The notes beneath the pieces are model-generated. The model did no database searches and had not been told where the DNA came from. It was given only the letters and a program-made list of their open reading frames with translations. The position numbers and the translations under genes were made by a program. From Candidatus Saccharimonadota bacterium (lineage in GTDB: Bacteria > Patescibacteriota > Saccharimonadia > Saccharimonadales > Saccharimonadaceae), in assembly GCA_017531585.1 (NCBI GenBank), contig JAFXKT010000002.1:382203-446202 (forward strand): a DNA stretch of 64,000 nucleotides. Reading direction: 5' to 3'. This document shows positions 12,485-18,400 of this stretch, piece after piece. The number at the start of each line of letters is the position of its first letter. The first letter of the stretch is position 1.

Positions 12485-13675
12485 ATGCATGAAATACCCG
12501 CAATCGAGAAGTTTTCCGATCCCTTTGTTTTCGCACAGATTACGGATAACCCCATAGCAAAGAAGAGCGTCATTTTTAGGCATTTTCACGCTATTGTTAT
12601 CTGCGATTATCTTATGCATCCCAATCGGTCAAATATCGAAAACTATTACCGCAGTATGTCCACTCTTCTGAAACAACCAGAGAATACAAGACTTGTCCTG
12701 TATCTCCCGCTCGAAGAGCTGCAAGACGCACCAGATTATTTTCAGGCTAGCTACATGGCCGCCTGGAGAAAATGCCTACGATTCGAAGACGTACGCGAAA
12801 ATTTCAACCTTGGTGATAGCCTCGAAATATCCGCAAGAGACGAAAATTTCCCCTACGTCACAAAAGCCGCCCACCTCATACCCTGGCTTCTAAAATACGG
12901 CTATCTAGGCGAGGCTTATGTTCTGAAGCTCTTGGAACAGGGAAGCGATTGCCTCGTTCGAAGCATCTGCGACTGCGAAAAGATGTTCTATAACATCTTT
13001 TTTCAGACTAGCCCAGAATTTCAGCTCCGCATCTCAAAGCGCGCTCGCGGTCTGCCAAAGAGAGAAAGCAAACCACTCTATAACAGCCCCGAGCGACAGA
13101 GTTGGCTTGAAAAGCTCGCAGAAGAGCGGTGGGGCAAGCTCACCCCTCGTAATATCACTGGACCTTTCTCGAATAACTATCACGTCTGGGATATAATACC
13201 GCCAACGGGCGACAAAATTATCCTTCTTGGAGGCTCCTACCTCAAAGGATACAGCGCCACGGTTAGCGATATCGACTCGTACGAATATGACGCAGATAAA
13301 ATGCAAATAGAAAACTATTGCGACGAGCTAAGCGACCATTTGAATATTCCCGATCAAAATATCGCTCACATCTGTCTTAATACTGTCTGGATAAGCGAAA
13401 GAAGTGATCTGAAGGAAATACAGAATGATTGCATTCGCCGCTATCTCGAACTAGAGCCAAATTCTATCGAGCGGAGTCAGAGCCTCGAAAGATTAGAGCA
13501 AGACCTGCTGCAATATCGCCTCATGCACAAGGGTATCAAACGTATCTACGAAAATGTTTCCGAAGCTACAAAACATTTTATAGGCATTGACGGCGCCAGC
13601 GCATTTTACGACCGACGCTATCGACGAATCGCCACTCAGCTTTTCGTAAAATACGTCTTCTTGCCTCAGCTTTAA
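12485..13675 (+). CDS. Predicted nucleotidyltransferase-fold protein, otherwise unknown
   Basis: 396 aa, AAGGAGG 8 nt before the ATG. No named family recognised, but residues 247-265 fit the nucleotidyltransferase superfamily pattern: hydrophobic residues, G249-G250-S251, ten residues, then D262-I263-D264, i.e. hG[GS]...DhD. The N-terminal ~240 residues are unlike any domain I know, and the C-terminal ~80 residues look helical. The product or target (nucleotide, tRNA or protein) cannot be read from the sequence. The gene is monocistronic and converges on the kinase/vWA/PurA-like operon; double terminators separate them. Stand-alone proteins of this fold occur in toxin, antiphage and nucleotide-signal systems, which is suggestive only. 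Confidence 0.65.
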   Translation: MHEIPAIEKFSDPFVFAQITDNPIAKKSVIFRHFHAIVICDYLMHPNRSNIENYYRSMSTLLKQPENTRLVLYLPLEELQDAPDYFQASYMAAWRKCLRFEDVRENFNLGDSLEISARDENFPYVTKAAHLIPWLLKYGYLGEAYVLKLLEQGSDCLVRSICDCEKMFYNIFFQTSPEFQLRISKRARGLPKRESKPLYNSPERQSWLEKLAEERWGKLTPRNITGPFSNNYHVWDIIPPTGDKIILLGGSYLKGYSATVSDIDSYEYDADKMQIENYCDELSDHLNIPDQNIAHICLNTVWISERSDLKEIQNDCIRRYLELEPNSIERSQSLERLEQDLLQYRLMHKGIKRIYENVSEATKHFIGIDGASAFYDRRYRRIATQLFVKYVFLPQL

Positions 13676-13730: not shown

Positions 13731-13770
13731 ATAAAAATAGGGCGCCCCAAAAACGGGACGCCCATTTTTT
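13731..13770 (-). terminator. Terminator of the kinase/vWA/PurA-like operon
   Basis: 9-bp stem GGGCGTCCC / GGGGCGCCC followed by TATTTTTAT on the minus strand. Confidence 0.85.
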
Positions 13771-13787: not shown

Positions 13788-14987
13788 TCAGAGAACCTCT
13801 TTGCCGCCCAGACCACGAATACCGCTCGGCGCATAGCCAAGCACACTCCAGTCAATAGCACGGCTGAGCTGCCAGAGGGCAGTCAGATAACGAGGCTCCT
13901 CGCCAGGCGAAAGTTCGGAGAACTTTGTTGCCGACAACACAAAGCGGGTCAGCATCTTCTCCTGGTGCACAAAGCTCGAAGAAATGTTCAGATTCAGAGC
14001 TTTCAGCATCTGATCGCGATTAGCGTAGCCGGTCATTGCCGGAAGCTGCGGATTCTCAAGAGCCTTCTTGATCTCCATAGCATCATAAGCCAGAGCCGAA
14101 GCCGTTACGCTACCAAGTCCGCCGAAGACGGAATTGATTGCGTCATTCAGCGTTTCAGTCGCGCTCTGTACTCCAGTAAACGGCGGTGTCTGCGGAACCA
14201 TACCCATACCACCGCCAGTCAGCAGAGAAGCCAAAGCCATCGGATTATTTGCCGAAGAACAGTAAGTTTCGTTCCAGGTATTAACCTCGTTGCTCACCGT
14301 ATAGACTGCCGGCAGCAACTTGTCGTTAACCTTTTTCAGGAACTTCTTGCGCTCGGAATCTGTTACAAAACTACCATCCAGTCCTTCAACTGCAGAAAAC
14401 AGATCCGCATAAGAACGACGAGTCAGCAGCTTGCGCAGCTTGAAGAATTCAGAACCAACCGGTTCGTCGGCGTTCTCTGCATAGCTTCTCATAGCCTCTT
14501 CCAGACGCTTGGGAGCATCATAGAGGCCACAACGCTCGGCATATACCGCACGAACAACTGCAATATAGCTATCCTGATTTACCTTCAGAACACCGCCAGC
14601 CTTAAGAGCCGTCAGCCAACTTTCATCACTCGGCAGTTCCGGCAGGATTGCCAGATCAGGAGCGATCACAGTCGGCGTAGCCGTAGGTGCAGGCTCAGCC
14701 TTTTTGGTCTTATCTGCAAGATAAGCCAAAAGCTTTCTTGCCTGGATAGTCTTCATGCCGCAAGAAACCAAATCTTCCTCGCTAACATAGGCCAGATCCT
14801 CCATGCTCTCGACACCCTTCATATCGAGGCCAACAAGCACTTCGCTCGAAGCGCCGAAGCCTTCGAGAAAACCTCTGAGCTCGAGCTTAGCGTCGTTCAT
14901 CTCCGAAGCAGCCTCACCTTTCTTTTCGGCGGCTGCTGCTGATGCCTTTTTCTCGTCCATGATTGCCGATACAATTTCGTTTGCCAT
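13788..14987 (-). CDS. Unknown operon protein with a possible SAM/HhH-like domain
   Basis: 399 aa, last gene of the operon. Residues 1-30 are Ala/Glu/Lys-rich and probably helical. Residues about 38-92 resemble a small helical SAM or helix-hairpin-helix module (FGASSEVL...MEDLAYVSEEDL...KLLAYLAD). A Pro/Thr linker and a ~280-residue helical domain of unknown type follow. Its ATG overlaps the stop of the PurA-like gene (TAATG), so translation is probably coupled, with AAGGAGG upstream. The stop is TGA. Not recognised beyond this. A scaffold or partner for the PurA-like enzyme would fit the coupling but is inference. Confidence 0.75.
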   Translation of the reverse strand: MANEIVSAIMDEKKASAAAAEKKGEAASEMNDAKLELRGFLEGFGASSEVLVGLDMKGVESMEDLAYVSEEDLVSCGMKTIQARKLLAYLADKTKKAEPAPTATPTVIAPDLAILPELPSDESWLTALKAGGVLKVNQDSYIAVVRAVYAERCGLYDAPKRLEEAMRSYAENADEPVGSEFFKLRKLLTRRSYADLFSAVEGLDGSFVTDSERKKFLKKVNDKLLPAVYTVSNEVNTWNETYCSSANNPMALASLLTGGGMGMVPQTPPFTGVQSATETLNDAINSVFGGLGSVTASALAYDAMEIKKALENPQLPAMTGYANRDQMLKALNLNISSSFVHQEKMLTRFVLSATKFSELSPGEEPRYLTALWQLSRAIDWSVLGYAPSGIRGLGGKEVL

Positions 14988-16345
14988 TACTTTTTCCTCC
15001 TTGGAATATAGTATTTGTCACGCTCGCTGCTGCCGAAGCTAAGCATACAGAGCGGAACATCCAGGTAATTCGACAGTATATCCGCACACCGCAAAGCGAT
15101 AGCCTCTTTACTGTCGGCGTATTCTTCATCAAAAGAATATGCATCGGTTACAATTTCAACCCTATCAATCTTATTGAACAGATTGTAATTGCCCAAATCT
15201 TTCAAATCCGAATACTCTTCATCATCAAGTTTGTAGGCTTTACAAATCGGCCAGTTTCCGTGATCCAGAACCTGATCCATACAAGTCAACGCAATTCCGT
15301 CAAATTTTACCGGCCTCGAAACATCAAGAGCATAACGCATCAGTACCGTGTCTATATAGCCATAGCGCGACGCACCCTGCCAACGATTGTTGTCTCTGGG
15401 CAAATCGCTCATATAGTTACTATCGGCGCTAGGCATAGGCCCAGCCCCATGACGATACTCATAGGCACGATGAACGCCGATGTTTATAATCTCACCCTCA
15501 AAGCCAGAATCACGGAACATCTCCTCTGAAAAACAGGGAAGAGTTCTCAGGGCACTAACATGCGGCTTGAGACCATACTCAGCATCCGTCAAAACTCCGT
15601 GCGAACGCTCAACGACAGCTATTTTACTCCGTTTACGTTTCATCAGAGTTTTAAGCGGTTCGAGATCCAGTTTCTTGCCAACCTCACGAAATTCATCAAC
15701 AATCTCGTTGTAGACATTACTGTCATCGATTGCTCGACAAATGTTCATAAAGTGTATCTGATCATTTTCGTCCAAATCATTAATGTCTACTCTTCTTGCT
15801 GCCTCACGAGCACGCTCGCGCGCAGCATTAATCTTCTTGGGCAGATCCGCATTAAGTAAATCTCTCGCAAAGATCAAACGATTCATCGAAGCTAAGCTTT
15901 CCTGCAAGGCAGCAACATACTCCCTATAAGCCACGCCTACTCCGCTCCCAACGGTGCCACGCGGGTTTTGACCGCGTGACATCTCGTTAATCTGTGAAAT
16001 ATACATGTGATAAGGAGTACTACAAAGACATTCCGGACTAGCCGAAATCGTCTTAAAAGCATCGTAAATGCCGTAACGCCTGAGCGCTTCAGCTTCACGA
16101 AGCAGCATTGATGGAGCAATGACCATTCGCTTAGACAGATAGGTCTGAACCGCGTTAAAAGTTCCACAACCCCACTGCGAAAAGCTAAAAGTTTCACCGC
16201 AAGCATCAATGCCATGCGAGCCCTGCGCTCCGCCTTCTTTAATAACCACTGCGGGATGAAAACGAGCACAGAGCGACTGAATAACAGAGCCTTTGCCTCC
16301 ATCTCCTGGTCCCAGATCGGTAACTGTATATATCTTTTCTATCAT
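14987..16345 (-). CDS. Divergent adenylosuccinate synthetase (PurA) homologue
   Basis: 452 aa from the ATG at 16345 (AAGGAGG upstream; a frame from 16378 lacks one). PurA landmarks are in order: P-loop GPGDGGKG (12-19) with the catalytic Asp at 15, a His at 44 in GGAQGSHG (GGHNAGHT in PurA), GTVGSGVGVAY (130-140), GVHRAYEYRHGAGP (290-303), RYGYIDTVLMRYA (327-339) and LTCMDQVLD (353-361). PurA joins aspartate to IMP using GTP. Here the GTP-recognition Lys of LTKLD is Cys, the GAQG loop reads ERSHG, and the Arg-rich GRRRR segment keeps one Arg. Changed nucleotide specificity or function is therefore likely. It sits between a vWA gene and an unknown gene, not with purine genes. Confidence 0.8.
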   Translation of the reverse strand: MIEKIYTVTDLGPGDGGKGSVIQSLCARFHPAVVIKEGGAQGSHGIDACGETFSFSQWGCGTFNAVQTYLSKRMVIAPSMLLREAEALRRYGIYDAFKTISASPECLCSTPYHMYISQINEMSRGQNPRGTVGSGVGVAYREYVAALQESLASMNRLIFARDLLNADLPKKINAARERAREAARRVDINDLDENDQIHFMNICRAIDDSNVYNEIVDEFREVGKKLDLEPLKTLMKRKRSKIAVVERSHGVLTDAEYGLKPHVSALRTLPCFSEEMFRDSGFEGEIINIGVHRAYEYRHGAGPMPSADSNYMSDLPRDNNRWQGASRYGYIDTVLMRYALDVSRPVKFDGIALTCMDQVLDHGNWPICKAYKLDDEEYSDLKDLGNYNLFNKIDRVEIVTDAYSFDEEYADSKEAIALRCADILSNYLDVPLCMLSFGSSERDKYYIPRRKK

Positions 16346-16355
16346 CGAGACCTCC

Positions 16356-17453
16356 TTAGAGCCATGCCGAGCTTTCACTCTCAGGCTCTACACCAGCGTC
16401 ATCCTCACGCTTAATAGTAGGAACAAGATCCGTCTTGTTTTCAAAGATATCTCCAGCCTTAGGAATATAAACCTTATTCTGCTGCTCAAGCTCACGCTGA
16501 GCACCAAAGGGAAGAGCAAGCAGTGCATGAATAGCGTGCTTAATATCGAACGACGACACTCCTTTACTCTCCAGATATTTCTCTACCTCTTCGGGCTCAA
16601 GAATACCTTCGGTTATGCCAATGATTGCCGATTCGAATTCCGGCAAGTAATCTGTCGAGAGCAGAGGAATAATTCTGCCCTCGAAATAACGCTGATAGAA
16701 CTCCTCTGCATCAATAGACAAGATAAAAGCATGTTTGTTCTTTTTTAAATCCTCTATCGTTTCCCTCAAATCAGGACGACACAGCGGATCGAAGTCGTAG
16801 CCATTGTCCTTCAGAGCTTCCCAAACTTTCTCGCCAAAGATTCTCTCCAGAGTATCATTCGAAATGGTACCATGCATCGGAGCATCAGTACACAAGAAGT
16901 AATAACCCTTGAGTCCAATCTTATTCGTATAGGCCGAAGTAAGATAAGCCGAGGCAAACATCGAATACTGCGGATCTTCAGGCGTGTCTCCACCATTACG
17001 TTCAGGATTCATCTCAGAGAGATAGCCAACAATCTTGTCAGCCTCCATCTCGAACTGAGGGCGATTCAGTACGAATTTATCACATACATCACCAAAGAAT
17101 CCCAAAGCCAGCTGAGGATCATATCCTGGCAGCATGGCAGAGCAAAGCTCGTAGGTTCTGGGTAACGCAGACATTGCACGATCAACATTGTCCCCCATTG
17201 ATCCAGTAGAATCTACCGAGGTTTCAATATCCATCGGGCAGCCAACGGTCACTTCCCACTTGCCATCTTCGGTCGGATCGAGACGCAGCATCGAACGACG
17301 CAGTGTATCAACCGACGGATCTACGGACGGCGGAAGCTTTCCAGTTTCTCTTACGTGCTGTTCCCCCTTACGGGTAACATCTTTGTCAGAGGTAACCCCT
17401 CTCGACTTGCGAGATGTTTCATACGCAGCCTTGGAAAATACCAATCTTCCCAC
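16356..17453 (-). CDS. von Willebrand factor A domain protein (TerY-like context)
   Basis: 365 aa, GTG start assumed. A metal-binding MIDAS motif is complete: D81-S-T-G-S85, then GGDTPED at 154-160 and CTD with D190. The N-terminal 70 residues are basic and polar. A helical C-terminal region (about 260-330) and an acidic tail follow. No signal peptide, so cytoplasmic. vWA domains bind partner proteins through a metal ion. In Ter-type stress systems vWA proteins are encoded with kinases and phosphatases, and here the upstream neighbour is kinase-like. The downstream PurA-like gene begins 10 nt after the stop. The exact start is uncertain because the AAAGGA site is 12 nt away. Confidence 0.85.
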   Translation of the reverse strand: MGRLVFSKAAYETSRKSRGVTSDKDVTRKGEQHVRETGKLPPSVDPSVDTLRRSMLRLDPTEDGKWEVTVGCPMDIETSVDSTGSMGDNVDRAMSALPRTYELCSAMLPGYDPQLALGFFGDVCDKFVLNRPQFEMEADKIVGYLSEMNPERNGGDTPEDPQYSMFASAYLTSAYTNKIGLKGYYFLCTDAPMHGTISNDTLERIFGEKVWEALKDNGYDFDPLCRPDLRETIEDLKKNKHAFILSIDAEEFYQRYFEGRIIPLLSTDYLPEFESAIIGITEGILEPEEVEKYLESKGVSSFDIKHAIHALLALPFGAQRELEQQNKVYIPKAGDIFENKTDLVPTIKREDDAGVEPESESSAWL

Positions 17454-17472
17454 TTAACATCACTATCCTTTC

Positions 17473-18321
17473 TTAAACAAAGTTGTCGACGTTTTTCCAA
17501 ACGCCGTCTTTATTGAAGGTGAACGGATGATATCCTTTCCCCCACAAAGCATCAAGAAATTCATAGTAGGCCACGTGAGCTTCCAGACCATTGTTAAAAT
17601 AGCCTGTAAACCGCTTCAGCCAACTCATGAATTCATCTTCGCCCTCAGTGTCATTCTTCTCAACCCAAGAAAGAATCGCATCAAACATACGATCAATATT
17701 GAGTTTAGAGATCAAATCACAGTGCGAATAGGAACGGTCGCCGCCATGCAGGAGTTCATCAAACCAACCTACATATACAAGGCGGTGCTGTTTCGGCGCA
17801 ATCAGAACCATATCGGGGTTAAAATCCAAGCTACGACAGTTCTCGCTCTCGTCAAGGAAGGCCTGGAGCTTCAAGAAGCGTCCAAGCACCCATGCGGCAC
17901 TTTTTGCATCGACTTTCGTGCCATTTTTCAGCTTCAAAAACGGAACAAACTTGTCCCACGAAGCGTCCAAAACCGAAAAAGTATTTATACGTCTATTGTC
18001 CGTAGCGTCACAAGAAAAACTTTGTTCACAAACAGGGAAGAGCCAGTCGTAGTGAATCTTGCGACCGTCATCACCCTGCTTCGCGATACGCTCCTGTTCG
18101 AGATTCTGAGACAATTCGCTCAGCTCGTCCAAAAGCTTCTTTTCGGCATACATGATGCCATTCTGGGCCTTACTTTTCACGATTCGGCAAAGCAATGCAT
18201 CGGCAGAGTTTTCACCTCTTCCAAGATACAGCTTGTAGTTATCTGTTTCTGCCAGTAAATCTCTCGGCGTAATACAGATACCTTCGTTGCCATTAGGATC
18301 ATTAATGACCAAATAAATCAT
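17473..18321 (-). CDS. Atypical protein-kinase-like protein
   Basis: About 282 aa, first gene of the operon. Residues about 20-60 resemble a kinase N-lobe: LYLGRGENS, then LLCRIVKSK, then NGIMYAEKKLLDEL with the spacing of the Lys and alpha-C Glu. About 95 residues further on, LDFNPDMVLI...HRLVYVGW resembles a catalytic loop (HxDxxPxNxLV) and the DFG/DW strand, but the His and the second Asp are missing, so it may be inactive or unusual. AAAAGGAG abuts the ATG at 18321; a TTG at 18312 has better spacing and may be the real start. Linked vWA-kinase pairs are known from Ter systems. The kinase call is a pattern judgement. Confidence 0.6.
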   Translation of the reverse strand: MIYLVINDPNGNEGICITPRDLLAETDNYKLYLGRGENSADALLCRIVKSKAQNGIMYAEKKLLDELSELSQNLEQERIAKQGDDGRKIHYDWLFPVCEQSFSCDATDNRRINTFSVLDASWDKFVPFLKLKNGTKVDAKSAAWVLGRFLKLQAFLDESENCRSLDFNPDMVLIAPKQHRLVYVGWFDELLHGGDRSYSHCDLISKLNIDRMFDAILSWVEKNDTEGEDEFMSWLKRFTGYFNNGLEAHVAYYEFLDALWGKGYHPFTFNKDGVWKNVDNFV

Positions 18322-18343
18322 CTCCTTTTCAAAATACAAAAAA

Positions 18344-18357
18344 CGAGACTAAGCTCG
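18344..18357 (-). promoter_or_regulatory. Attenuator-like leader hairpin of the operon
   Basis: On the minus strand CGAG / CTCG with a 6-nt loop is followed at once by TTTTTT and then the ribosome site. It has the form of a weak intrinsic terminator inside the 5' leader. Confidence 0.4.
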
Positions 18358-18371
18358 CCTTTATGAGTCAT

Positions 18372-18400
18372 ATCATAAACTATTTTACAGAGAAGGGCAA
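18372..18400 (-). promoter_or_regulatory. Promoter of the kinase/vWA/PurA-like operon
   Basis: TTGCCC, 17-nt spacer, TATGAT on the minus strand. Confidence 0.55.

Follow-up and report, generated by a model that had tools for sequence, protein, structure and literature searches.

A conserved gene module linking a divergent PurA-like enzyme to a pseudokinase and a vWA protein in Saccharibacteria, large phages and plasmids

Results

A compact gene cluster in a Saccharibacterial genome

We analysed a 64,000-nucleotide stretch of DNA (hereafter, the window) from a Candidatus Saccharimonadota bacterium (assembly GCA_017531585.1, contig JAFXKT010000002.1, positions 382,203 to 446,202), the genome of which is 1.01 Mb and 99.6% complete. 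Four genes that we name A, B, C and D occupy positions 13788-18400 of the window, all on the minus strand and separated by short gaps (Table 1). They encode a kinase-like protein, a von Willebrand factor A (vWA) protein, a divergent relative of adenylosuccinate synthetase (PurA) and a predicted helical protein. The comparisons presented here identify A-B-C as a real, previously undescribed module.

An initial annotation of the sequence had described four packed genes between one promoter and one terminator, with the fourth gene overlapping the third. All four open reading frames are real and lie where they had been placed, their strand being absent from that description; the TAATG overlap of the C stop with the D start and a strong GC-rich hairpin after D are also there. 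The promoter-like sequence is present but matches at 9 of 12 positions, and the region holds 10 sites of this quality where 5.6 are expected from shuffled sequences, so it is weak evidence for a promoter. The four-gene extent ends too early, as gene E, on the opposite strand beyond the terminator, belongs to the locus too. Translation of C starts at an ATG preceded by AAGGAGG, rather than at the GTG of the longest open reading frame. Since the GTG start of B directly follows an in-frame stop, the Met-Gly N-terminus of B is certain. When A-D were compared with Pfam, C alone gave a match (Adenylsucc_synt), the SAM-like start of D falling under the cut-off. None of the locus proteins matched a PADLOC model at E ≤ 1, and we therefore rejected a known anti-phage defence system as an explanation of the locus.

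Table 1. Features of the locus, in window coordinates
Feature	Position	Strand	Details
Promoter-like TTGCCC-17-TATGAT, upstream of A	18372..18400	-	9/12 match
Gene A, kinase-like, 288 aa	17473..18339	-	start TTG 18339 or ATG 18321
Gene B, vWA/integrin beta-I-like, 365 aa	16356..17453	-	GTG start, N-terminus Met-Gly
MIDAS of B, D81-S-T-G-S85	codons 17213-17199	-	
Gene C, divergent PurA-like enzyme, 452 aa	14987..16345	-	ATG start
Gene D, 399 aa, SAM/HhH-like start (about residues 54-90), then a remainder predicted to be all-helical	13788..14987	-	
Intrinsic terminator hairpin, between convergent D and E	13740..13763	-	10-pair, GC-rich
Gene E, 396 aa, nucleotidyltransferase-like, convergent with D	12485..13675	+	motif codons about 13235-13276

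A, B and C are linked in phages, plasmids and Patescibacteria

Relatives of C occur in 24 of 199 genomes of the window's family, with a patchy distribution within the genus, and the full A-B-C-D order was found in 16 retrieved loci, whose proteins are 27-52% identical outside near-identical copies. Using profiles built from these proteins, we detected neighbouring A, B and C genes well outside the phylum: in mycobacteriophage Shaqnato (gp252, gp253 and gp255) and on plasmids of Rhodococcus, Tsukamurella, Variovorax, Agrobacterium, Acetobacter and Rhizobium. Methylorubrum and Vibrio phage VB_VaC_TDDLMA carry a B-C pair, and Rhodovulum carries an A-B pair. A search of IMG/VR with the alignment of C yielded 253 relatives, and 80 loci were retrieved. 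B is present in 76 of these 80 viral-contig loci, and in three of the four exceptions C lies at a contig end; likewise, C is present in 43 of 45 viral-contig loci found with B. Most loci found by either route carry A as well, and many of the contigs are 100-500 kb long, the size of jumbo phages. Independent tblastn searches of annotated phages with B and with C each returned 190 mycobacterial, 10 Rhizobium and 6 Vibrio records.

The relatives in 24 of 199 family genomes, the conserved loci and the viral linkage rule out a one-genome oddity, and conservation of the neighbourhood in other genomes, which had been put forward as a check, extends across phyla, phages and plasmids. These sequence comparisons show that the three genes travel together, and we take A-B-C to be a mobile functional module carried mainly by phages. 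A search of genome contigs with a single window protein found just two near-identical loci, so the sampling of bacteria beyond plasmids and Patescibacteria is too sparse. Several IMG/VR contigs classed as viral (L155, and L156/L075/L202) carry an operon of the Saccharibacterial type; these are either misassigned host DNA or a phage or prophage of Saccharibacteria.

C proteins branch apart within the PurA superfamily and retain a phosphoryl-transfer site

C matches PF00709 (Adenylsucc_synt) with an E-value of 1.1e-35 and 123.6 bits (cut-off 27), and it also matches phrog_1211; its scores against the NCBIfam PurA equivalogs are below their cut-offs (98.6 versus 402, and 88.3 versus 395.55). We aligned 127 module members and counted residues using E. 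coli PurA numbering. The positions for phosphoryl transfer and guanine binding are kept: Asp13 in 124, Lys16 in 125, His41 in 126 and Asp333 in 123 of the 127. The window protein has Asp15 (Asp13 in E. coli), Lys18, His44 (His41) and Asp357 (Asp333), including the Asp15 and His44 noted in the initial annotation. The co-substrate side is changed: Asn38 is replaced by Gln (119/127), Val273 by His (126/127) and Thr301 by Gln (121/127), Thr300 is aromatic in most members, Arg303 is absent from all 127 and Arg305 is lost throughout. A conserved W/F/Y-Q-G stands in place of the aspartate loop (Trp-Gln323-Gly324 in the window), in line with the proposed loss of most of the Arg-rich loop. Neither the PurA contacts to inosine monophosphate (IMP), namely Asn38, Thr129 and Arg143, nor the aspartate loop Thr300-Thr301-Arg303-Arg305 is found as a set in C. 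The window branch diverges further, with Gln224 changed to His and Thr239 to Ser.

Two other proposed losses need a narrower wording. The GAQG loop is indeed RSHG in the window protein (Arg298-His299-Gly300), but this is a trait of the Saccharibacterial branch, most relatives retaining GAQG. The GTP-recognition Lys is also missing (LTCMD), but this absence has no diagnostic value: the textbook Lys331 is missing from several housekeeping PurAs as well, being Ser in Priestia and His in Haladaptatus (loci L070-L074 and L062).

The lost features do not by themselves make C a dead enzyme, given that hardly any of the 127 members deviates at the phosphoryl-transfer residues. The active-site pattern is naturally read as that of a functional, GTP-dependent enzyme that takes a different acceptor. 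A Saccharibacterial locus (L045, 9064-10536) encodes a standalone homologue of C that lacks Asp13, Lys16 and His41, with no A, B or D nearby, and this protein is likely a pseudoenzyme. One could extend that description to the whole family and regard C as an idle PurA relic, a GTP-binding scaffold or sensor within a vWA/J-domain chaperone complex: the aspartate site is gone, the partners A and B resemble chaperone or adaptor proteins, and the standalone copy provides a precedent. We consider this improbable, as catalytic residues that are almost invariant across phage and cellular members would be unusual for a relic.

Phylogenetic analysis separated the module proteins from housekeeping PurA with support of 100/100. 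A second tree with 126 members recovered the C group with an SH-aLRT value of 99, and PurZ falls outside it too. Phylogeny had been set beforehand as the test of whether the third protein stands apart from ordinary PurA; on sequence it does, and C is a single clade of the superfamily distinct from both PurA and PurZ. C is also the sole PF00709 protein of the window genome, and PurB was not found there by a search that finds PurB in 14 of 14 control genomes; the usual route to adenosine monophosphate (AMP) is therefore excluded as the role of C. An ordinary place in purine metabolism, as PurA or as a PurZ-type enzyme for 2-aminoadenine DNA, would account for the PF00709 and phrog_1211 matches. 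It is highly improbable given the equivalog score, the trees, an Asp13 kept where PurZ has Ser, the missing aspartate loop and the lack of PurB, and we rejected it.

C thus has the fold family of PurA, the GDxGKG loop with its catalytic Asp and Lys, His41 and the guanine-binding position Asp333, and differs in the substitutions described above, in its separate clade, in its obligate partners B and A and in a genome that lacks PurB. PurZ/PurZ0, which act in 2-aminoadenine synthesis, are likewise phage-borne PurA paralogues with a changed substrate, but differ in clade and, for PurZ, in the Ser at the Asp13 position. The PHROG label of the C family, '2-aminooxy adenylosuccinate synthetase', is misleading.

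B is a vWA protein with an almost invariant Met-Gly start

The complete metal ion-dependent adhesion site (MIDAS) reported for the second protein is present (DxTGS), together with the distal Asp, and the MIDAS is invariant across the B family. The predicted fold is a vWA/integrin beta-I domain (pLDDT 88.3), and the model aligns with integrin beta over 188 residues (Z 15.2, rmsd 3.0). Met-Gly, or Leu-Gly at a TTG start, opens B in 98 of 99 non-redundant viral-contig loci; it lies at the first possible start codon in 76 of the 99 and follows a site resembling a ribosome-binding site in 79. Gly2 is one of 14 invariant columns in an alignment whose rows were trimmed to MG, and the flanking residues are variable. 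One cellular exception is the B of L238, which is paired with C and begins Met-Ala. vWA paralogues without a dedicated C (L239, L242 and the second vWA of L236) begin M[SAP]EG[AG]DY rather than MG, and an A-like kinase is also encoded in two of these three loci.

This N-terminus raises the possibility of protein-nucleotide conjugation, in which C would use the N-terminal Gly of B, freed by removal of Met, as the amine, and A and/or E would act on the adduct. The near-universal Met-Gly amid varying flanks, the invariance of Gly2, the W/F/Y-Q-G that replaces the aspartate loop of C and the different start of paralogues lacking C are all consistent with it. However, the C-paired B of L238 begins Met-Ala, a structural role can explain an invariant N-terminal Gly, and no such adduct is known; we regard conjugation as rather unlikely. 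There is correspondingly little expectation of a new conjugation chemistry, a GTP-dependent purine- or NAD-derived adduct on a vWA partner in hundreds of large phages and in episymbionts.

The vWA gene of Shaqnato (L054, 6879-8660) has an apparent intein interruption (Hint, E 0.0016). The vWA genes of many cluster C phages give two-piece tblastn matches, in line with such an intein.

A is a pseudokinase that is usually fused to a J domain

The catalytic loop of the window A protein is degenerate: CRSLDFNPDMVLI. Pfam searches (E ≤ 0.01) detected Pkinase in 22 of 40 A proteins and DnaJ in 22 of 40, and an HPD motif lies near the N-terminus in 59 of 87. The window protein and its lineage have no J domain, with neither the HPD motif nor a DnaJ match, and comparison of hidden Markov models ties the window protein to the J-domain pseudokinases. 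The Asp of the HRD motif is replaced (HGA-type) in nearly all C-linked copies, which makes A a pseudokinase family-wide. HGD and DFG are intact in the two A-like proteins of L236 and L239, which lie beside paralogous vWA genes. On sequence, A combines a kinase fold lacking the catalytic Asp with, in most cases, a fused J domain; the description of a kinase-like protein with degraded residues holds for the window, and the J domain is the usual state outside its lineage. Transfer of AMP or glutamate is possible for SelO/SidJ-type pseudokinases, whose kinase fold likewise has no HRD Asp; A may be likened to them by resemblance.

The module keeps company with NAD and ADP-ribose genes

Neighbours of the module are enriched in genes of nicotinamide adenine dinucleotide (NAD) metabolism: NrtR-type Nudix, NAMPT, NadD, PncA and PncB. 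Near phage copies, the Pfam family recognised most often is NAMPT (6 hits among 84 neighbours in one scan and 1 among 85 in another), and 10 of 103 non-redundant phage loci have a NAMPT gene at a distance of at most 8 kb. By our own arithmetic, about 2.7 of 103 would be expected for a 200-kb genome and the 33% prevalence of NadV/NAMPT reported for jumbo phages (PMC9503650). NAD genes can stand between B and C, as in L121 (B-NadM/Nudix-NAMPT-C-A); L113 has the order B-NAMPT-phosphoribosyl pyrophosphate synthetase-like-C. Further genes near phage copies encode NadA, NAD kinase, NADAR and R2K ATP-grasp enzymes. Among cellular loci outside the Saccharibacterial lineage, an NrtR-type Nudix gene adjoins 9 of 14 non-redundant copies; Nudix proteins of the NrtR type are regulators that sense ADP-ribose. 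The fullest array is in L237, with genes mostly named by sequence reading: NrtR-NadD-A-B-x-C-PncA-NadD-like-ADP-ribosylglycohydrolase-Nudix-PncB. L048 has a similar neighbourhood.

The initial annotation had linked the vWA-kinase pair to Ter-type stress systems. TerY-P and other Ter systems pair a vWA protein with a kinase-like protein, and A-B resembles them by analogy. The module kinase differs in being a pseudokinase, usually with a J domain, and we know of no counterpart of C in Ter systems. No TerB, TerC or TerD gene was seen in the subset of neighbours that was scanned; the recurrent company is NAD/ADP-ribose genes instead.

Another likeness is to the NAD+-ADP-ribose conflict systems built on ADP-ribosylglycohydrolase (ARG) and Nudix proteins (PMC9503650), with which L048 and L237 share a Nudix-HTH regulator, an ARG, a vWA 'peptide-binding chaperone' and NAD salvage genes. 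No PurA-like ligase figures in that description, however, and most module copies lack ARG. A Nudix regulator and an ARG occur together in the operons of L048 and L237 and not in the window, where a partial Pfam scan of the proteins detected no ARG.

A protein resembling a pyruvate-kinase barrel by eye recurs in L236 (13650-14753), L237 (6824-7774), L049 (5350-6288) and L242 (7860-8894), accompanying the module or vWA paralogues without C.

A proposed activity for the module

A nucleotide-related function, suggested as a hypothesis at the outset, remains our best guess. We propose, with about even confidence, that C is an enzymatically active nucleotide ligase, dependent on GTP and with an acceptor that is not aspartate, and that it works with A and B in NAD-, ADP-ribose- or purine-derived metabolism of phage-host conflict. 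The linkage, clade, active-site pattern, folds and gene company point to this proposal; its catalysis, substrate, complex and conflict role are the conjectural parts. Just as PurA activates O6 of IMP, C would use GTP to activate a nucleotide at a carbonyl or phosphate, and would then join the activated nucleotide to some acceptor that is not free aspartate. A would be a nucleotide-binding pseudokinase, recruiting Hsp70 where a J domain is present, and B a Mg-dependent peptide-binding protein; together they may form a partner complex of C that presents or supplies the acceptor. The substrates could be molecules derived from NAD, ADP-ribose or purine nucleotides in the course of conflict, and the pathway might help phages to keep or protect nucleotide pools, having later been acquired by hosts.

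Several observations weigh against this proposal. NadV/NAMPT is common in jumbo phages, so part of the NAMPT adjacency is background. No NAD gene lies beside the window copy, no NrtR-type Nudix is present in the window and no NAPRTase was found in its genome, so that the window locus is linked to NAD by its relatives only. The window branch lacks the equivalents of Gln224, Thr129 and Arg143, and its C may use other substrates. Finally, residue conservation is no proof of ligase activity over a kinase, GTPase or sensor activity.

The combination of a vWA-kinase pair with a PurA-family enzyme, unrecognised in the initial annotation, is real, conserved and absent from the literature that we searched. 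Searches of open-licence papers on PurA with vWA, on PurA with NrtR, on PurA-like proteins of phages and on the PHROG label of the C family turned up nothing about this module. PurA/adenylosuccinate is unmentioned in Iyer et al. 2022 (PMC9503650), a jumbo-phage survey (PMC7824862) and the R2K paper (PMC4431377). The consulted part of a PurZ survey (PMC12884076) assigns 151 of 481 phage PurA homologues to PurZ and characterises only those, and a mycobacteriophage note (PMC9476963) lists a kinase and a 'PurA-like' gene separately. Genes recorded until now singly, as 'PurA-like', 'serine/threonine kinase' or 'hypothetical', are almost always linked, whether in jumbo phages or cluster C mycobacteriophages, on megaplasmids or in Patescibacteria. 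Should C prove to be a ligase with a new acceptor, the textbook family to which it belongs would gain a reaction, and the NAD/nucleotide conflict of phages and hosts would gain a new arm. Since cultured phages of laboratory hosts carry the module, it is open to direct testing, and it gives a way into the question of why episymbionts of 1 Mb that lack PurB retain a PurA-family enzyme.

Saccharibacterial additions to the module

D is not universal among module loci. The SAM-like module ascribed to it is matched at the N-terminus, just under the Pfam cut-off (24.3 bits versus 25). AlphaFold predicts D to be all-helical at low confidence (alignment of 4 sequences, pLDDT 62.6), and no PDB match to this model was found. 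Across the order (393 genomes), 28 genomes carry D, 26 carry E and 25 carry both (Fisher p 4e-35); the two genes are tail-to-tail in the loci inspected. E has the motif GGSxLKGYxxxxSDxD, which contains the hG[GS]...SDxD pattern and is typical of Pol-beta-type nucleotidyltransferases, and a core S-x-x-K-G-Y-x4-S-D-x-D that is invariant in 12 sequences. Profile matches to known nucleotidyltransferases were sub-threshold (E 0.51; best 0.011 in another search). By its motif, E looks like a Pol-beta nucleotidyltransferase.

In our proposal, the module in Saccharibacteria, with an A lacking the J domain, would have gained D as a helical adaptor and E as a putative nucleotidyltransferase with a possible part in adding or processing a nucleotidyl group. 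These additions also bear on signal synthesis, in which the product of C, together with E in Patescibacteria, would be a messenger, a modified nucleotide, for which the Nudix regulator or D is the sensor, with A and B as regulators. The NrtR-type Nudix regulators adjoining the module, the motif in E and the patchy distribution would fit such a system; no effector gene recurs across loci, however, and most phage copies have no adjoining sensor, and we judge it unlikely. Two copies of E, in G152 and G120, are reported with an in-frame TAG.

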